Shown piece by piece: positions 36,009-44,830 of a stretch of DNA of 64,000 bases. The notes under the pieces were generated by a model. It was not told the origin of the DNA, did not search any database, and was given only the letters and a program-made list of their open reading frames with translations. The position numbers and the translations under genes are program-made. This stretch comes from Bacteriovoracaceae bacterium (GTDB lineage: Bacteria; Bdellovibrionota; Bacteriovoracia; Bacteriovoracales; Bacteriovoracaceae), in assembly GCA_020630335.1 (NCBI GenBank), contig JAHDBN010000011.1:1-64000 (forward strand), given 5' to 3'. Each line of letters begins with the position of its first letter. Within the stretch, counting starts at the first letter, position 1.

Positions 36009-36230
36009 TTAGAAGCTAACTGCCTCACTACCGCTTTTAGATTCTCCACTTGGTGAATCGACTCTATCACTAACTCTGCTTGCCGCTGAAACTTCAGAAC
36101 TAGAACATGAAGTTAATGAAACATCTTCTCCACTAAATTCACCAGTTGTCCCTGATTCAGGGCCACTGGAATTCCCAGAGATTCCATGTAAAGCACACAT
36201 TCCTAATACTAATGCTGACTTAATCATCAT
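36009..36230 (-). CDS. Small secreted Ser/Gly/Glu-rich protein at the end of the Tad operon
   Basis: A 73-aa protein with a short N-terminal hydrophobic segment (IKSALVLGMCALHGI) and a Ser-, Gly- and Glu-rich mature part. It starts 6 bp after the stop of the YD-repeat gene, so it is probably co-transcribed. No family recognised. Confidence 0.55.
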   Translation of the reverse strand: MMIKSALVLGMCALHGISGNSSGPESGTTGEFSGEDVSLTSCSSSEVSAASRVSDRVDSPSGESKSGSEAVSF

Positions 36231-36236
36231 TTATCC

Positions 36237-37907
36237 TTATAAGTTTAAGTTTACCCCAGCTGGCTTAACTATACTGAGTAGGTTCTGGAAAGCTCCTGTT
36301 ACTTGACTTGCTATCCCTCTTCCACCTTTTGAATCGACGTTCTTTACTTGCCCAAAAGAATCATATTGGACATTAATTTTTCCAACACCATCCATACCAA
36401 TAACAACAGGTTTACCTTGTGAGTTATAAGCAAAAGAGATGATCTGTTTTTTTGCACCTTTCTTTTGACTAACCATTTTAGAAATTTTTCCTTTCAAACC
36501 ATAAATCAAAGCAACGGTATTCCCTTTTGAATCATTAGCTTTAGAAAGTTCACCCTTAGCATTATAAACATAATTGATGCTTCCTGAATTGTTTGTAATT
36601 TTAGAAACTCTTTTCGTTTTTTTATCGTATTCTAACTTAGAGAAACTTCCATCATTAGATTTCTTAGAAATCATTCTGCCATTATCGTATTTAAACTCAG
36701 AAACTTTTGAACCTTGAATAATTTTAACAGGTAACTCACAACATTCGTTGTTAAAAGTCTCTCTTAGTACCCCACCAACAAGTTTTGAACCTTTTTTATC
36801 TGCCCCTGTAATAAACTTTGTTCTATATAACCACTGAGAACCATCTGCTCTCAATTTATGCTCATATTCATATTTATTCGTATAATCAGATCCAGAAAGT
36901 CCTTTCTTTGTTACCTCTGTCCAATAATGAAGAGAACCTTTATCTAAAGTCCCATATTTATAAGAATTCACATCTCCATTTCTTTTCGTCACACTCTTAG
37001 TAAAAAACGTTTTAGGCTCATAAGCTATTTTTAAAGTAGATCTTTTAGAATCTTTGATTTTCATATCTTTAATACTTACTAAGTTATGATAAGAGTCATA
37101 ACCATATGAATATCTATTATTATTAATATCTTTAGATGAAATTAAATCCTTACCATTATATTTAAATTCTGCTTTTGAAGCTCCTTTTGCAGCAATAGAT
37201 GTAATAAATCCATCACTATTCCATGTTAAAGAAAACTGATTTCCTGAATTATCATAAATTTTCTCAACTTTTTTTGTGCTTTTATTTCTTTTAAATCTTA
37301 ACTTGTAACCATTTTTTTCAATAGATGCTATCAAGTCTCCATCTTTATCAAAAAACTGAACAAATCCAGATTCAAAAGATCTTTTATAACCTTTTGGAAC
37401 AACTGCTAATTTCTGATAACCATAGTTAAAAGAAGTTAATAACCTATTAGGCTGAAATTTTGCCTTCAACCCAAGCTCTTTAGCCATTTTATGTCTAAGA
37501 GAACTATCCTTGCTTAATTTTTTCACTAACTCTGCTTCGGAAGATTTAGTGAGTTTTGTTTTCTTTTTAAATGATTCTATGATTTTCTTTGATAATTTAC
37601 TTACATCAGATTTTGATAATTCTTTTTTCCCAACAAACCTACTTTTTCCTCCTGTTCCATTTTCATAAATATAAACAGTACCATCCAAAGAAGCTTCTAA
37701 TCTTGTTTCAAAGGGTGAACCCCAACCGTAACCAAACCAGCCTTGTGAGGTTGATTTTGAATTATAAGTTCTTGTCATCTCTAAAGTCTTGCCCTTACTC
37801 GTTGTTACGATATCAGTATAAGAAATGAAATAATTTCCATTTTTAAGATTAACCCCAGAAAAAAGAAATAATGGGAAAAGAACGACTAATAAACTCAAAT
37901 TTTTCAT
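36237..37907 (-). CDS. YD/RHS-repeat exported protein linked to the Tad operon
   Basis: A 556-aa protein with a signal peptide (about residues 1-18). Its N-terminal part is DUF6531-like (MTRTYNSKS, GWFGYGWGSP). Multiple YD-type repeats follow (NSDGFITSIAAKGASKAEF, YDNGRMISKKSNDGSFSK, YNAKGELSKANDSKGN). It lacks a long RHS core and a variable toxin tail, so it looks more like a surface or adhesin protein than a polymorphic toxin. A paired cysteine motif NECCELP lies mid-way. It begins 20 bp after the TadB-like gene and may be a substrate or pilus-associated surface protein; that role is inferred. Confidence 0.75.
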   Translation of the reverse strand: MKNLSLLVVLFPLFLFSGVNLKNGNYFISYTDIVTTSKGKTLEMTRTYNSKSTSQGWFGYGWGSPFETRLEASLDGTVYIYENGTGGKSRFVGKKELSKSDVSKLSKKIIESFKKKTKLTKSSEAELVKKLSKDSSLRHKMAKELGLKAKFQPNRLLTSFNYGYQKLAVVPKGYKRSFESGFVQFFDKDGDLIASIEKNGYKLRFKRNKSTKKVEKIYDNSGNQFSLTWNSDGFITSIAAKGASKAEFKYNGKDLISSKDINNNRYSYGYDSYHNLVSIKDMKIKDSKRSTLKIAYEPKTFFTKSVTKRNGDVNSYKYGTLDKGSLHYWTEVTKKGLSGSDYTNKYEYEHKLRADGSQWLYRTKFITGADKKGSKLVGGVLRETFNNECCELPVKIIQGSKVSEFKYDNGRMISKKSNDGSFSKLEYDKKTKRVSKITNNSGSINYVYNAKGELSKANDSKGNTVALIYGLKGKISKMVSQKKGAKKQIISFAYNSQGKPVVIGMDGVGKINVQYDSFGQVKNVDSKGGRGIASQVTGAFQNLLSIVKPAGVNLNL

Positions 37908-37927: not shown

Positions 37928-38821
37928 TTACGCTTTTATTTTAACAATTTTGCTCATAAAAAAACCACCAAGCAAAACTAACCCTATAACTACAATGAAT
38001 ATTCCTATTCCTATAGGAGTAGAGAACAAGAGCTTAACTGCTTCAGGATTACTCGCTCCTAGCATGATTAAAAGCAAAAATGGCATAAGACAAAGTACTC
38101 TTCCCTGCATTAAGGCTTGCGCTACATATGAAGCAATTTTTTGCTGCAATCTAACTCTTTCTCGAATAATATCTGAAATTGTATCGAAGGTTTCCGATAA
38201 ATTCCCTCCAGTTTCTCTTAAAATATTTATACTCGTTGTGAACATTTGAACGTCTTCAAGTTCTAATCTTTGATTCATATTTTCCAAAGACTCATCAAGA
38301 GAAATCCCTAATCTATTTTGCTGAAGCACTAGATTAAACTCTTGAGCGATAGGATTTGGAAGTTCTTCTACTACCATTCCAAAAGATTGAGGTAGAGATA
38401 AACCAGCTCTTAATCCACTGGCCATAAGGTTTAATCCATCTACCATTTGTGATTGAAACTTATTTCTTCTTCTTTGAACTAAAGTATTCATCAAAGGTTT
38501 AGGAAGTTGCCAAGCAATAAATAAAAAGATTATTCCAAAAATTATCCCCATTAAAACACTCCCCATAAGAGTAAAGAGTGTGAAAAATAAGAGCGCTCCT
38601 CCAAAAGAAAAGCCTAACAATCCCCAGGTAAGTTTTTCAGGATCAATTTTATAGAATAAAAACTCACACTTCTCTAAAATATAATCTCTTGTTCCAAAAG
38701 TTTTATCTTCTATAAATTGAAATATTTTCTCAGAATTTTTAAGACAAAAGTAAAATACAAGTATACCTATTAAAAGGATTACTCCTTTTTTACCAAGTAC
38801 ATTTAAAAAAAGAATTTCCAT
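37928..38821 (-). CDS. Tad pilus inner-membrane platform protein (TadB/TadC, T2SSF domain)
   Basis: A 297-aa protein with an N-terminal helix pair, the T2SSF domain (MVDGLNLMASGLRAGLSL, LRETGGNLSETFDTI) and two C-terminal helices (CLMPFLLLIMLGAS, GIFIVVIGLVLLGGF). It forms the inner-membrane base driven by the CpaF-type ATPase. The GLRAG motif and layout fit TadB. Only one such gene is present, whereas typical Tad loci have two (TadB and TadC). Confidence 0.85.
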   Translation of the reverse strand: MEILFLNVLGKKGVILLIGILVFYFCLKNSEKIFQFIEDKTFGTRDYILEKCEFLFYKIDPEKLTWGLLGFSFGGALLFFTLFTLMGSVLMGIIFGIIFLFIAWQLPKPLMNTLVQRRRNKFQSQMVDGLNLMASGLRAGLSLPQSFGMVVEELPNPIAQEFNLVLQQNRLGISLDESLENMNQRLELEDVQMFTTSINILRETGGNLSETFDTISDIIRERVRLQQKIASYVAQALMQGRVLCLMPFLLLIMLGASNPEAVKLLFSTPIGIGIFIVVIGLVLLGGFFMSKIVKIKA

Positions 38822-38829
38822 ATTCTTTC

Positions 38830-40944
38830 CTATTCTTTATTTTGAAAAATCCCCCTTGGGATTTTATAACCTTTCCTTTCAAGATCTTCGACAAATTTAG
38901 GAATAAACCCAGTTGCCTGAAACTTCCCTACTACTTTCCCTTTTTTGTCTAAACCCTCTTGGTTGTAGACAAAAATATCTTGAAGAGTAATTATATCACC
39001 ACCTTGAAGTCCAGCTACCTCGGTAATATTCATAACCTTTCTTGAGCCATCTTCTAATCTAGATTGTTGAACAACAACTTGTACTGCTGAAGCAATCATT
39101 TCCTTTATCGCTCTCGGACTCAAACCAGATTCAGCATACTGAACTAAGGTTTCAAGTCGTCCCATACAATCTCTGGGTGAGTTAGAGTGAACTGAAGTCA
39201 TTGAACCTTCGTGACCTGTATTCATGGCCTGAAGCATATCTAATGTTTCTCCACCTCTACACTCTCCTACTATTATTCTATCAGGTTTCATTCTTAATGT
39301 TTGCTTGACGAGCATTCTGATAGAAATTGCCCCATCACCCTCTAAATTGGCAGGTCTTGTTTCTAAGCGCACCACATGCTCTTGTGGAAGATCTAACTCG
39401 GCAGAATCTTCGCATGTAATAATTCTTTCATTCGCTGGAATGTAGCTACATAGTACATTTATCAGAGTTGTTTTACCTGAACCCGTACCACCACTTACAA
39501 CAACATTTTTGCCAGATTCTACAATTATTCTTAAGAAATCAGCCATTTCTTCAGTCATTGAACCAAATTTAATTAAATCTTTATAAGTAAGTCTGTTTTC
39601 TGGAAATTTTCTAATCGTAATAGTGCATCCATCTATCGCACAAGGAGGAATGATTGCATGAACTCTTGATCCATCCATTAATCTCGCATCAACATAAGGA
39701 GTCTTCTCATCAATTCTTCTTCCAATTGGATAAACGATTTTTTCAATAACTCTTAATACTTGTTTGTCACTAGTAAAAGTAACATCTGATAATTTATTTT
39801 TACCAGATTGTTCATAATAAATTTTATCAGGGCCAACAACCATAATTTCAGAAATACTTGGATCAGATAATAAATCCTCAAGAGGCCCCAAGCCTAGAGC
39901 TTCATCAATTATCTCTTTTACGATTTGAGACATTTGTTCACGACCTTTAACTATCCCTGCAGTTTCTTCTTTGTTTAAAAGCTCTACTATTTTCTTTTTA
40001 GTCTTATCTCTTAAAATTAGTCTAGTATTTTCATCTTCATCTAATGATTTATTCTGAAGATCCATTTCTTCAACCAAGCCACGTAATATTTTTTGCTTTA
40101 ATATATTCCACCTATGAACTTCACCGGCATTTACCGCTTTTGAATCACCTTTAACTTGAGTTTTGGACGCAAGACTAGGTCTATTCATTTTCTCTAATAT
40201 TCTTAATATATTCTTTGTTTTAATTTTTCTAACAATATTTAAAACGCCAGCAGAGTAAGCTGCTGTTTTACTTAACGTTAATGCTGGTGTTTTTTTAGTT
40301 AAGCTTAAAGAACAAGTGGCTTCATCTTTAGGTATTGCAGAAAATAAAGTTCTACCTAATTGTTTCGTTGCAACTTCTAAATTAACTGGATGTGATTTCT
40401 GAGCCTGGTTAAAAACAATTTGAATAACATCCTTAGGTATCATTAACGTACTCAAGTCTGATAATAATTTTTTCGTTTTATTTATAGCTAGAATATCAGG
40501 AGTAACTACAACAAGAATCAGGGTTGCACTTTCTAGAGCACGAGAACTTAAAGGATTGATCTCAGCACCAGCATCAATAACTGTCATTGGGAATATTTTT
40601 TTAGCTGACTTTAAAAGCTTTCCCACTCCATCAACATCTATATTAGAAGCTTCTACAGGATCTGCGTTCATCGAAATATGAGAAACTCCAGCCTTGTGAT
40701 GTGCAGCTAAGCTCGTCATGATCCTAGAATCTATAACACCATTTAACTTTGAAATATCAAGTAAACTTTTTTTTGAATTAAGATTTGTTATGATCGATTG
40801 ATCTCCACAAGCTTTCTGATCAAAATCAAGCAATAACGTTTTTTGCTTATTTTCTAAAGAAAAACCAAAGGCAAGGTTCGCAGCTAAAAGTGATTTGCCT
40901 AGGCCATCCTTGCTTCCAAAAACTGTAATCACATGGCCAGACAT
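38830..40944 (-). CDS. Fused CpaE/TadZ-like MinD ATPase and CpaF/TadA secretion ATPase
   Basis: A 704-aa protein. Residues 1-250 form a ParA/MinD-like domain: deviant Walker A KDGLGKS (12-18), DFDQK and TVIDAGAEI. Residues about 280-704 are a CpaF/TadA ATPase: GPLEDLL, GGTGSGKTT (485-493), CEDSAELDLPQ, and a Walker B region in RIIVGECRG. CpaE localises the Tad machine and CpaF powers pilin assembly; usually they are separate proteins. It lies 1 bp downstream of the CpaC-type secretin gene and 8 bp before the TadB-like gene. Confidence 0.92.
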   Translation of the reverse strand: MSGHVITVFGSKDGLGKSLLAANLAFGFSLENKQKTLLLDFDQKACGDQSIITNLNSKKSLLDISKLNGVIDSRIMTSLAAHHKAGVSHISMNADPVEASNIDVDGVGKLLKSAKKIFPMTVIDAGAEINPLSSRALESATLILVVVTPDILAINKTKKLLSDLSTLMIPKDVIQIVFNQAQKSHPVNLEVATKQLGRTLFSAIPKDEATCSLSLTKKTPALTLSKTAAYSAGVLNIVRKIKTKNILRILEKMNRPSLASKTQVKGDSKAVNAGEVHRWNILKQKILRGLVEEMDLQNKSLDEDENTRLILRDKTKKKIVELLNKEETAGIVKGREQMSQIVKEIIDEALGLGPLEDLLSDPSISEIMVVGPDKIYYEQSGKNKLSDVTFTSDKQVLRVIEKIVYPIGRRIDEKTPYVDARLMDGSRVHAIIPPCAIDGCTITIRKFPENRLTYKDLIKFGSMTEEMADFLRIIVESGKNVVVSGGTGSGKTTLINVLCSYIPANERIITCEDSAELDLPQEHVVRLETRPANLEGDGAISIRMLVKQTLRMKPDRIIVGECRGGETLDMLQAMNTGHEGSMTSVHSNSPRDCMGRLETLVQYAESGLSPRAIKEMIASAVQVVVQQSRLEDGSRKVMNITEVAGLQGGDIITLQDIFVYNQEGLDKKGKVVGKFQATGFIPKFVEDLERKGYKIPRGIFQNKE

Positions 40945-40945
40945 C

Positions 40946-42448
40946 CTATCGACGCCTCCTAAATTTTCTTCTAATTTCTTTAGTACCTTCTGATGCTGAT
41001 TGAATTAACTCTGGAGTTATAAAAACAACGTATTGATTTTTTGCAATTGATCTAGATTTAGACCTAAGTAAATTAAAAAATACTTTGTTTGAATTATCAT
41101 CACCTACTGGTGCAGGATCATTTTTATCAAAACCTGTAACGTCATTACTTTGAACAATCCCACCAAGGGCTGCAGACTGACCAGACTTTATATAAAGCTG
41201 CGTCTTAACACTATTGGAAGCAACTATTGGTGCCCCTGAAGAAGATGTTCCTGAAGGAACACTTACATTTAAATCTATCTTGATTTGTATATTTTCATCT
41301 TGTAAGACAGTTGGTGTTACGCCTAAAGTAAAATTCACATCTGCCTCAGCTCCTCTTGCGTTATCACCAGAACCTAGCAAAAAAGGAATTTTTGTACTTT
41401 TAGCTACACTACCCGTAACATTTTCTTGGGTAATAACCATTCCACTTTGAATAACTCTCCCATATCCAGCATTTTTAAGAGATTGAATTTTAGGAAAAAG
41501 ATTTGAAATAATCGCACTAAAAGTTCCACTAGACCTAGCACCTAGTGATCCATTTTCAGTCTTTCCTATATTTATACTTCCACCATCATTATTAAGAAGT
41601 GGCGACCATTTAAAACCAAATATTTTAGAATAATCTTTAGTAAGTTCTACGAACTGACTTGATATTTTAACTTGTTTTGGAAGAGGTTCTTTCTTTTTTT
41701 TCTTTTTTTGATTAACTGATAAATAATAATATATCTCACCTTTATCTTTATTAACCAACAACCTGTCTGAACTACTGGAAAGACTTTCTATCTTTTCAGG
41801 TAAAAGTGCTTTTGTAATTCTTTTCGCTAGCTCTTCTTCTCCTTGGCTATTTACAACTCCCTCAACCCAATAAGCATGATTCACTACTCTAACGGAAGCA
41901 TTTTTCAAATTAAATCGAGCAAGCTCTTCTGTCATTTTTCTTGCAATAATTCTTTGTGTCTGTGGATGCATTTCTACCATTCTTAAAACATCTGGATAGT
42001 TTATTAATACCGTTGCAACTTTTCCGATATCACTAGGAACAACAATATGGCCACCTACAAAAACTTTTCCACCTTTAACACCTATTTCAAGTCCTTCAAT
42101 TTCTCCTAATAAATCCTTAAGCTCAGTTAAAGTTTTTGATTGATCGTTTTCTGTTACTGAAATAATGTATCGAATTTTCTCATTTCCACTCTTATCTCTA
42201 ATAGTCATAGAAGTTGTTTTTCCTTCCTTTAACCCTACAAGATTTAATTTTTGAGCATCAGGAAAGACGTCTACTTTAATAACTTCTTTGTCACCAAGAG
42301 TAATGTTTGTGCTAAATGGAAAATCAATTTTGATAGTTTGATCTATACCTTTCACTAAGGTAATTTCTTTTCTTTTAACCTCAGATTGAGAAAAAGAAAA
42401 AAGAGAAAAAATTAATATAAAAAAAAGAAATTTATTTTTTGTTTTCAT
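40946..42448 (-). CDS. Tad pilus secretin (CpaC/RcpA)
   Basis: A 500-aa outer-membrane secretin. It has a signal peptide, an N-terminal domain with FPFSTNITLGDKEVIKVDVF, a BON-like region and a C-terminal secretin domain (SQFVELTKDYSKIFGF, GSVAKSTKIPF, GVTPTVLQDENIQIKIDL, and a QSAALGGIV block). A short run of six lysines (KKKKKK) separates halves. It overlaps the CpaB-type gene by 17 bp. It forms the outer-membrane pore for the pilus. Confidence 0.92.
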   Translation of the reverse strand: MKTKNKFLFFILIFSLFSFSQSEVKRKEITLVKGIDQTIKIDFPFSTNITLGDKEVIKVDVFPDAQKLNLVGLKEGKTTSMTIRDKSGNEKIRYIISVTENDQSKTLTELKDLLGEIEGLEIGVKGGKVFVGGHIVVPSDIGKVATVLINYPDVLRMVEMHPQTQRIIARKMTEELARFNLKNASVRVVNHAYWVEGVVNSQGEEELAKRITKALLPEKIESLSSSSDRLLVNKDKGEIYYYLSVNQKKKKKKEPLPKQVKISSQFVELTKDYSKIFGFKWSPLLNNDGGSINIGKTENGSLGARSSGTFSAIISNLFPKIQSLKNAGYGRVIQSGMVITQENVTGSVAKSTKIPFLLGSGDNARGAEADVNFTLGVTPTVLQDENIQIKIDLNVSVPSGTSSSGAPIVASNSVKTQLYIKSGQSAALGGIVQSNDVTGFDKNDPAPVGDDNSNKVFFNLLRSKSRSIAKNQYVVFITPELIQSASEGTKEIRRKFRRRR

Positions 42449-43238
42449 TCTTCTTCTGATAATACCTTCTTGCTTCCAGAGCGTCTTCTCCTAAAACATC
42501 AAAGAGCTCTGTTGCTGGTATTCTCCCTAAAGAAGTATCATTTGTATTTCTTAAACTCGTATAAATTCGCTGTCCAGAGTTGACTATAAAGATCAACTTT
42601 TGCACTTGATCAGGATCAAGCTCTAAAGTGATATTTCTATAGTTAGAATCCATTCTAAGATTAACTGTTTTATACTTTTCATCAGTCTTTTTTAAAGCAA
42701 GTGGTAATTGATTTGTTACATTCAACCCTGTTGAAAGAACCCTTACCCCCTGAAGAATTGTTTTTACTTTTTGTTTTTCAATTTGTCCCGGAGCATAAGC
42801 AACTACTGCTAAAACATCTACTCTATTACCAGGCTTAATAAGTCTACCTACTGATTGAGAATCATTTACTGAAATTGCATAAGCTCTTTTTCCTGGAGCT
42901 ATCTCAGGAGCTAACCCTGTTCTTACTCCAGGTTGAGTAATCCTTGGCTTAGTGATCTGCTCACCTTTTAAGATGCTCACTGCTGCAATAGTGTTTGTTA
43001 CTTCTTCAATGCTTGAAATATATCCATTCATTGCAAATTTCTTTGGAACAGTAATGATTTGAAGCATAGAATCGTCAATTACGGCTAACTCTTTAATATC
43101 TTCTCGTGCCACAACAACCGGCTGCATATTTCCATAAGTTTTTTTATACTGAGCTTCTCTCGCATCAATATAAGACCACGCCATAAACATTGCTATTCCT
43201 GCTATAATTAAAGAAAGCGTAAAAGACCTAGAATTCAT
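42432..43238 (-). CDS. Tad pilus assembly protein CpaB/RcpC
   Basis: A 268-aa protein with an N-terminal helix, a SAF domain (VVVAREDIKELAVIDDSML, KGEQITKPRI), then GKRAYAISVND and RPGNRVDVL-like RcpC segments (LIKPGNRVDVLAVV). A strong ribosome site GGAGG stands 6 nt before the ATG. It starts about 90 bp after the TadE-type gene; this gap holds no gene. It is thought to stabilise the secretin and bind peptidoglycan. Confidence 0.9.
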   Translation of the reverse strand: MNSRSFTLSLIIAGIAMFMAWSYIDAREAQYKKTYGNMQPVVVAREDIKELAVIDDSMLQIITVPKKFAMNGYISSIEEVTNTIAAVSILKGEQITKPRITQPGVRTGLAPEIAPGKRAYAISVNDSQSVGRLIKPGNRVDVLAVVAYAPGQIEKQKVKTILQGVRVLSTGLNVTNQLPLALKKTDEKYKTVNLRMDSNYRNITLELDPDQVQKLIFIVNSGQRIYTSLRNTNDTSLGRIPATELFDVLGEDALEARRYYQKKNENKK

Positions 43239-43329: not shown

Positions 43330-43824
43330 TTATTGTATTAAACATCCAGATGCACCAGAAGCTAAAAGAGGATCTTTAGAAAATGAACTGTTCCCACTTT
43401 TTTTGAGTGTTACTCCACACAATCCAAAAACTGTCCCCACTCTAATATATTCTGTAGAATCTCCAGAATATTCTTTGCACTCTCCTTCTGAGTTTGCACT
43501 ACCTGTTGCTGGTAAATTTAATTTATAACAAGGTTGAACTGGGAATTGATCATTTTTTAATTCTTTTGCCCAACCTATATAAGTCATGCCTATACTATCG
43601 AATTGCTGATGTCCCTCGCTTACTAAAGGTACCATTGAATTATTTTTAATCTTTGAGAAAAAATAAGCTCTCGAAATTTTTTGTTGGTTTATTGCACCAT
43701 TAATTGAATTACCTATTTTTAGTAGCAACACTAAAAGAGTAATCATTATAGGAAGAAAGAAAATAAACTCAAAAAGAGCTTGTCCATCTTCGTTTAATAT
43801 TTTTTTCTTAACATCCATTATCAT
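43330..43824 (-). CDS. TadE-like pseudopilin, last of four prepilin-type genes
   Basis: A 164-aa protein with a short basic leader, the class III processing pattern G-QALFEF (Glu at +5, Phe at +6 after the Gly) and a hydrophobic helix to about residue 40. The C-terminal domain has four cysteines. It fits TadE/TadG-type minor pilins. It overlaps the previous pseudopilin by 17 bp. Confidence 0.75.
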   Translation of the reverse strand: MIMDVKKKILNEDGQALFEFIFFLPIMITLLVLLLKIGNSINGAINQQKISRAYFFSKIKNNSMVPLVSEGHQQFDSIGMTYIGWAKELKNDQFPVQPCYKLNLPATGSANSEGECKEYSGDSTEYIRVGTVFGLCGVTLKKSGNSSFSKDPLLASGASGCLIQ

Positions 43825-44335
43825 AAAGCGTTACATCTTCGTTTATATCTTCACCTTCACATTTAGAAAACCCCATTGCTTTTCTAATCTGACATTCGCA
43901 ATCTGCTCTAGTAGGTTCTTTCCCTAAAAATGACTCTGACAATAACTTGTTTTTTTTACTATCAGTTGCAATTTTAAATGGTGGTGAAAACAAAAAATAA
44001 GCCCCAAAAAACTCTGTAATATCAGTTTTATTTGCACTTGCATTAATACTTGGATGAGCATTAAATTTTATATCACCATCTATCCCTAAAGATTTTAAAG
44101 GAATAGTTTCAAATGCTTCCTCGCCTTTTCTTATTCCTACCAAAAATCCTTGATCTATATCTTGAGAACTAGCATGATCACCTGTAAGGTATGCTCTTGA
44201 TGCAACAAAAGTAGCATAGTGAGCGATATAACCTGTTGCTAAATTCATAGAATAATATAAAAACAAAACAACAAAACCAAAGGCCATGATAAACGTTAAC
44301 AAAAATTCAATTGAAATCTGCCCATGATTTTTCAT
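43808..44335 (-). CDS. TadE-like pseudopilin, third of four prepilin-type genes
   Basis: A 175-aa protein starting MKNHGQISIEFLLTF: G followed by Q, I, S, I, E, F matches the class III prepilin-like cleavage pattern. A long hydrophobic helix follows, then a globular domain ending in a Cys-rich stretch (DCECQIRKAMGFSKCEG and a terminal NGC). Its ATG overlaps the preceding stop (TAATG). Confidence 0.75.
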   Translation of the reverse strand: MKNHGQISIEFLLTFIMAFGFVVLFLYYSMNLATGYIAHYATFVASRAYLTGDHASSQDIDQGFLVGIRKGEEAFETIPLKSLGIDGDIKFNAHPSINASANKTDITEFFGAYFLFSPPFKIATDSKKNKLLSESFLGKEPTRADCECQIRKAMGFSKCEGEDINEDVTLYDNGC

Positions 44336-44640
44336 TAGTTAGGATACCTTGTATTTGGTCCAAAGAACCTTGTTTGTCCTACTGATTTTACATATGATCT
44401 ATGAAAACTTCTGTCATTATAGTTTACAGAGTTTGGTGTATTTTTATCGGCTCCAGTTGGGTCTCCGTAAGCATTACGATAAGAAAATTGAAAACTTTGG
44501 TTCATCAATAAAAGTATATCGCCATCACGACCAAATGATTCATTATATTTTTGATAAAAAACACTAACTAAGCTTGCGACAAAAACAAACATGAGTAAGT
44601 ATTCAATGACTGCCTGACCCTTATTATTTTTTCGTATCAT
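44335..44640 (-). CDS. Prepilin-like protein, second of four prepilin-type genes
   Basis: About 101 aa when started at MIRKNNKGQAVIEYLL, the ATG placed 9 nt after an AGGG. The motif KGQAVIEY has the Gly cleavage site with Glu +5 and Tyr +6 typical of Flp pilins. The C-terminal part is polar and aromatic. Starts further upstream are less likely. It overlaps the Flp-like gene by 17 bp. Confidence 0.7.
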   Translation of the reverse strand: MIRKNNKGQAVIEYLLMFVFVASLVSVFYQKYNESFGRDGDILLLMNQSFQFSYRNAYGDPTGADKNTPNSVNYNDRSFHRSYVKSVGQTRFFGPNTRYPN

Positions 44641-44830
44641 TTTCATAGGCCCTAAAAAAACAAGCTTCTTCACAAACACCTGTAGAAAGATTTATGGATA
44701 ATACATGAGCAAGCCTTCCAAACTTTTCAGAAGTAGATTCAGAAAGAGTTCCGACTACGTTAGTAGTCAATAATACTCCAAAAACCATTAACAAAAGATA
44801 CTCTAAAAGAGCTTGTCCTAAATTATTCAT
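44624..44830 (-). CDS. Flp-type major pilin candidate, first of four prepilin-type genes
   Basis: A 68-aa protein whose N-terminus is nearly all leader and helix: MNNLGQALLEYLLL. G-QALLEY matches the Flp class III processing site. The short length fits a Flp major pilin, but two cysteines (VCEEACF) near the C-terminus are unusual for that family. It is the first gene of the operon; the promoter probably lies in 44831-44955, divergent from the 6S RNA gene, and I see no clear -35/-10. Confidence 0.7.
   Translation of the reverse strand: MNNLGQALLEYLLLMVFGVLLTTNVVGTLSESTSEKFGRLAHVLSINLSTGVCEEACFFRAYENDTKK

Follow-up and report, generated by a model that had tools for sequence, protein, structure and literature searches.

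Among the questions raised by a 64,000-nucleotide stretch of DNA from a Bacteriovoracaceae bacterium (the whole of this 64-kb stretch is called the window below) is why the motor ATPase of a pilus operon should share a reading frame with an ATPase of the MinD family, and how a motor built in this way would work. The first-pass annotation of the window read one gene as a MinD-like ATPase joined to a CpaF motor within a Tad-type operon, and that reading stands, as do its coordinates and the positions it gave for the two Walker A motifs (residues 12-18 and about 485-492). The features of the gene and of its neighbors are collected in Table 1.

Table 1. Coordinates in the window of the fused gene, its parts and the surrounding operon
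Feature	Position	Strand	Basis
Fused CpaE-type MinD-like ATPase and CpaF/TadA motor, 704 aa	38830..40944	-	ORF, Pfam, AlphaFold2 model, fold matches; bd0111 counterpart by gene order
MinD-like (CpaE-type) ATPase domain without receiver, residues 1-251	40192..40944	-	Pfam CbiA/AAA_31; pLDDT ~92; fold match 3ea0
Deviant Walker A KDGLGKS, residues 12-18	40891..40911	-	D13 in place of the usual first Gly
Flexible linker, residues ~252-272	40129..40191	-	pLDDT <50 at 259-271
CpaF N-terminal helices (three-helix bundle region), residues 270-325	39970..40137	-	Model helices 270-293 and 305-325; 9e24 profile match 275-704
Remaining CpaF motor (NTD and ATPase domain), residues 326-704	38833..39969	-	Pfam, profile and fold matches
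Motor Walker A GGTGSGKTT, residues 485-493	39466-39492	-	Sequence motif
Secretin (RcpA/CpaC; bd0112 counterpart)	40946..42448	-	Pfam Secretin; conserved order
CpaB/RcpC (bd0113 counterpart)	42432..43238	-	TIGR03177, 148 bits against a cut-off of 71; conserved order
TadB/CpaG-type platform protein (bd0110 counterpart)	37928..38821	-	Pfam T2SSF; conserved order
Secreted RHS/YD-repeat protein (bd0109 counterpart)	36237..37907	-	Pfam DUF6531 and RHS_repeat; conserved order in Bdellovibrionota loci
Pilin-like or TadE-like protein (DGQALFEF..., hydrophobic start)	43330..43824	-	Pfam TadE E 0.34, under cut-off
Pilin-like protein (HGQISIEFLL...)	43808..44335	-	Sequence; no Pfam match
Pilin-like protein (KGQAVIEYLLMF...)	44335..44679	-	Sequence; no credible Pfam match
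Candidate Flp pilin, 68 aa (LGQALLEYLLLM...)	44624..44830	-	Sequence; Flp motif GXXXXEY as given in PMC5430801

All 704 residues are encoded by a single unbroken frame on the minus strand, a strand that the first-pass annotation had not given, and the two halves are recognized both by sequence and by fold. Pfam places CbiA/MinD at residues 6-217 (E 2.8e-8) and T2SSE (PF00437) at 350-627 (E 1.3e-59), while a profile built from 63 fused proteins matches the ParA-family ATPase 3ea0 over positions 7-243 (E 5.9e-37) and the solved CpaF structure 9e24 over positions 275-704 (E 3e-174). The motor motifs do not vary across that 63-row alignment. The second half is thus a CpaF by T2SSE sequence and by CpaF fold, with a score of 322 bits against NCBIfam TIGR03819, a model of a narrower set ('hypoth_equivalog') whose curated cut-off is 373.15. 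The first half is an ATPase domain of the CpaE type but falls short of a complete CpaE/TadZ: a receiver (REC) domain was looked for and is absent, the MinD-like domain beginning at residue 4 with nothing N-terminal to it. By comparison, one of the separate CpaE proteins carries its REC domain at residues 5-125 (locus L054).

The predicted structure has the same two-part form. In the AlphaFold2 model (mean pLDDT 88.1) a confident MinD-like module reaches to about residue 251 and is followed by a low-confidence linker (259-271), the CpaF helices and the confident motor module; the relative placement of the two domains is not predicted, since the pTM is 0.55. Foldseek aligns the N-terminal half with 3ea0_A (TMt 0.91, rmsd 1.8) and the motor half with the CpaF structure 8rjf_A (TMt 0.82, 46% identity over 416 aligned columns), and matches to the motor half also include the archaellum FlaI structures 4ii7 and 4ihq. 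Two helices, 229-243 and 246-251, lie just N-terminal to the linker, where an amphipathic signal is present at a modest level (peak moment 0.54, against a whole-protein 95th percentile of 0.49). Measured between profile matches, the linker has a median length of 43.5 aa in 138 fused copies.

The fused gene belongs to a tightly packed set on one strand, in the order pilin-like genes, CpaB, secretin, fusion, TadB and RHS/YD-repeat protein, with one base between the end of the secretin frame and the start of the fusion. Together the CpaB, secretin, motor and platform genes make up a Tad/Flp operon set. The four short pilin-like genes share, by eye, a GQ..xxE motif and a hydrophobic stretch, and none has a Pfam match above cut-off. 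Platform genes within the operon are of the TadB type only; a 477-aa single-T2SSF protein elsewhere in the genome (L224, contig 31, ~63.1-69.4 kb), beside a DUF192 gene and three FHA-domain genes, is a possible TadC. The order CpaB-secretin-fusion-TadB-RHS recurs in seven of nine Bdellovibrionota loci examined (L001-L004, L006, L009 and L010), the two exceptions being L007, where no RHS gene was detected, and L008, where the contig ends within the fused gene. An RHS gene was found at 5/10 fused loci with at least 14 kb of sequence and at 0/42 tandem or unfused loci. After the RHS gene of the window lies a frame of 73 aa, rich in Ser and Gly and opening like a signal peptide (36009-36230, minus strand). 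It occupies the position of bd0108, which in B. bacteriovorus is the disordered 'hit' protein responsible for the lifestyle switch; the likeness between them is purely one of position. The genome also holds a second CpaF-like ATPase, unfused, of 375 aa and 40% identity (L223:5126-6253, contig 13), whose scanned neighbors are an adjoining enolase gene and a 403-aa frame with no Pfam match.

The same arrangement is known from B. bacteriovorus, where the hit/TAD locus runs bd0109 (RHS), bd0110 (TadB), bd0111 (TadA), bd0112 (RcpA) and bd0113 (RcpC) (PMC5430801, PMC3818213). We liken bd0111 to the fused gene by this gene order; the descriptions in those two papers that bear on the point have it under the names TadA or 'flp pilus ATPase', with no mention of a MinD-like domain. 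Mass spectrometry detected its product in B. bacteriovorus cells of the attack phase (PMC5430801). Across the accounts consulted, the gene has gone by the names TadA, TadB and 'flp pilus ATPase'. In searches of the open-access literature of PubMed Central, no description of a MinD-CpaF fusion was found. Three classes were recognized in a survey from 2025 that covered 292 CpaF proteins; in these the three-helix bundle is preceded by nothing (class I), by a disordered region, or by an FHA domain and a disordered region (class III) (PMC12019362). With a MinD-like domain of 251 residues before the bundle, the fused protein falls outside all three, and its architecture is absent from the survey's class descriptions (PMC12019362).

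The likeness to known CpaF/TadA motors (8rjf, 8rkd, 9e24) extends over the whole motor half and stops at the N-terminus, which is disordered in Caulobacter, an FHA domain in class III or missing in class I, and here is a MinD-like ATPase of 250 aa. KilF of Myxococcus offers the nearest parallel, in that a CpaF motor of a predator's Tad system again has an extra N-terminal domain (PMC8460266), though in KilF that domain is FHA. The archaellum FlaI is a relative of the motor, but FlaI and the second ATPase, FlaH, are two separate proteins, unlike the fusion. In Epd/Tad relatives, too, a second ATPase gene lies alongside the motor gene (PMC6668835). CpaE/TadZ has an ATPase domain homologous to the fused one; what distinguishes the fused domain is the missing receiver, the tie to the motor and a retained P-loop lysine, which is gone from roughly half of the separate CpaE proteins. 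The fusion is thus genuine and common, a version of a familiar machine that seems not to have been described before.

How widespread it is runs against the first-pass annotation, which had presented the fusion as exceptional and had itself named common occurrence as grounds for refuting the finding. A search for the same domain pair found single-frame matches covering both domains in 309/368 Bdellovibrionota genomes (146/150, 80/80, 77/80 and 6/58 by batch), a spanning match being defined as one frame running from residue 7 or earlier to residue 700 or later. One of the 146 spanning rows, G128, has an in-frame stop, and the non-spanning rows of the 150-row batch (four) and of one 80-row batch (three) are partial copies. 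The remainder of the 58-genome batch consists of 5 genomes with a shortened MinD-like domain (family f15), 25 with copies interrupted or cut by a contig end, and 22 without any piece of the gene. Overall, a match with an E value of 1e-30 or lower is present in 365 of the 368 genomes. In Omnitrophota, 71/145 genomes have a CpaF match and 53/145 have the one-frame fusion. The fusion is the usual form of the motor throughout Bdellovibrionota and is frequent in Omnitrophota.

Beyond these two phyla, fusions were seen in Acidobacteria (L020), Eremiobacterota (L033, L064), Elusimicrobia (L042) and WOR-3 (L045), and most of these copies lack the P-loop lysine, which the one from Elusimicrobia retains. 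Long N-terminal extensions with no match to the MinD-like profile occur in other CpaF proteins (L039, 932 aa; L065, 745 aa; L066, 1105 aa).

Did the join occur once? In trees of either domain, each fused group, that of Bdellovibrionota and that of Omnitrophota, forms one side of a branch. The trees were computed on subsets of 99, 78 and 86 rows, from 212 CpaF frames found overall. Left free, the CpaF tree separates the fused proteins of one phylum from those of the other and places proteobacterial and myxococcal CpaF without the fusion closer to the Bdellovibrionota group, as would be expected if the two phyla had made the fusion independently. That said, trees in which the fused rows of both phyla are held together score above the free search in both domains, by a likelihood of 12.9 for the MinD part (AU p 0.785) and, when L013 is included, of 10.8 for the CpaF part (AU p 0.731). 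Since the joint constraint raised the likelihood and is not rejected by the AU test, a single fusion and later transfer is possible. Linkers are similar in both groups, which also argues against independent events, and a single fusion with transfer fits the published grouping of Omnitrophota TadB and TadC with Bdellovibrionales (PMC10066038). From these comparisons a single origin, with passage of the fusion between lineages of Bdellovibrionota and Omnitrophota, is the most likely history; separate origins in the two phyla, while a serious contender, are on the whole doubtful.

Six other fused loci (Acidobacteria, Elusimicrobia, WOR-3, two Eremiobacterota and one further) look partly independent, and those of Acidobacteria, Elusimicrobia, WOR-3 and Eremiobacterota may be separate events. 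A fusion needs little, because cpaE and cpaF are already adjacent in 33 of the best 80 loci from public collections; a further 22 of these loci are fused and 25 are neither, in a set ranked by similarity, so that the proportions are not frequencies. Tandem genes lying in the same frame were considered as a special route and rejected: cpaE and cpaF are in the same frame, one stop apart, in 13/33 tandem loci, close to the third that chance would give.

Whatever its origin, the joined domain has been kept under close constraint in Bdellovibrionota. Residue counts were made on copies with a complete domain start, start-cut copies being omitted except in the family f15 described below, and on the 108 full Bdellovibrionota copies other than that of the window the P-loop lysine is present in 108/108, the signature lysine in 107/108 (the last has arginine) and the aspartates D42, D48 and D124 in 108/108. 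The fused form looks more ATPase-like than separate CpaE, since the P-loop lysine is found in just 16/33 of the adjacent separate CpaE proteins. Such strong constraint on nucleotide use weighs against reading the MinD-like half as a relic with a structural or regulatory role, one that stabilizes the motor or blocks its assembly off-site but whose ATP cycle has ceased to position anything. Two observations speak for a relic nonetheless. In the four f15 loci read (L124, L125, L128 and L133) the domain is shorter by about 70 residues or more, lacks the signature lysine and the switch-I region, and has a plain or nearly plain GxxxxGKT P-loop; in L124 structure prediction nevertheless gives it as a folded alpha/beta unit (whole-protein mean pLDDT 79.9). 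The full MinD cycle is therefore not always needed, and f15 offers a natural test of the need for it.

The second observation concerns position 13, the first glycine of KGGxGK, which is Asp in the window and in 5/108 of the other full copies. The carriers are two of the three congeners read (L088 and L089; L087 has Gly) and three copies of family f28 (L122, L123 and L134), so that the substitution is present in the genus of the window and, separately, in f28. We take this residue to be the position of Soj G12, on the dimer-contact loop, and the Soj G12V substitution reportedly blocks dimerization; by this analogy the window's own MinD-like domain may pair poorly. Even with these exceptions, a relic is an unlikely account of the domain in the phylum at large.

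It is also conceivable that the gene serves mainly as a translational unit, with an internal start or proteolysis freeing a CpaF from it. An in-frame ATG lies within the linker in 91/135 fused genes, including that of the window, where a start at residue 252 would yield a 453-aa protein of ordinary CpaF size. Such an ATG is missing in the other 44/135, however, and ribosome-binding sites are not enriched: a match of at least 4 precedes 18/139 linker ATGs and 445/2744 other internal ATGs. A translation start that releases the motor is thus unsupported, and two products from one gene seem very improbable. As for an assembly error, which the first-pass annotation had raised and for which the draft state of the contig is the sole argument, the recurrence of the same joined frame in those 309 genomes, across the phylum and in the complete chromosome of Bdellovibrio sp. 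qaytius (CP025734.1, L010), rules it out.

From the fusion, its domain order, operon, distribution and conserved motifs, all of which are read from sequence, we infer how motor and recruiter would behave. The protein is probably the motor of a Tad (type IVc) system with a built-in, CpaE-like membrane recruiter at a fixed 1:1 ratio, in an architecture typical of the phylum. The CpaE-type domain would take the place of the disordered or FHA N-terminus of other CpaF proteins. The motor half would assemble as the usual hexamer, and the MinD-like half would bind ATP and pair with a neighboring MinD-like domain. The helices at 229-251, just before the linker, might help to keep the motor ring at the inner membrane, below the platform. 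Recruitment and motor would then be a single part, and by simple arithmetic a hexamer would carry six MinD-like domains, probably as three pairs.

Neither a separate CpaE nor a ring of receiver domains would be needed in such a system. Among the five AAA_31 matches in the window's 98%-complete genome, no separate CpaE was detected; the other four are a 272-aa frame (C19), called Soj-like solely from its size and a 227.7-bit score, a ParA-like protein, a MinD-like protein without receiver and an Mrp/ApbC protein. Several extra ParA-like frames of 355-412 aa are found in 12 further genomes and could count against the built-in recruiter.

The stoichiometry can be set against that of Caulobacter, where CpaF is a C2-symmetric hexamer (PMC11300603, PMC12019362). 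In situ tomography from 2026 fitted six CpaE dimers, twelve CpaE in all, around the CpaF hexamer (PMC13170226). The dimers are probably linked through their receivers and bound to the membrane by a C-terminal amphipathic helix, and the CpaE-CpaF contacts in that study come from AlphaFold3 (PMC13170226). The first-pass annotation had argued that fusion forces one localizer on each protomer. Such a constraint is less extreme than it sounds: because the Caulobacter fit has six dimers per hexamer (PMC13170226), fusion would lower the ratio of CpaE to CpaF, not raise it. The word localizer itself is inherited from CpaE/TadZ, and stands here for a putative role of a domain that has no CpaE receiver half.

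A bolder reading, which we hold tentatively as a real possibility, would make these proteins a fourth architectural class of CpaF with a CpaE-type recruiter inside the motor. The class would have been fixed early in Bdellovibrionota and shared, through transfer of the Tad module, with Omnitrophota that are putative predators or parasites, and six tethered domains in three pairs would replace the receiver-linked ring of twelve CpaE in the Caulobacter model. If this is true, positioning of the pilus machine would be impossible without its motor.

For the study of Tad motors more generally, the fusion is a natural construct that fixes the partner of CpaF, the 1:1 ratio and, roughly, the distance between the two (about 20 flexible residues); it therefore tests the Caulobacter model and is a good target for cryo-EM. 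By implication, an entire phylum may manage without the CpaE receiver domain. An annotation that reports just 'TadA/CpaF' would score TadZ as missing in such genomes. Finally, since the TAD locus has been linked in B. bacteriovorus with the invasion of prey, where this motor is positioned matters for predation.
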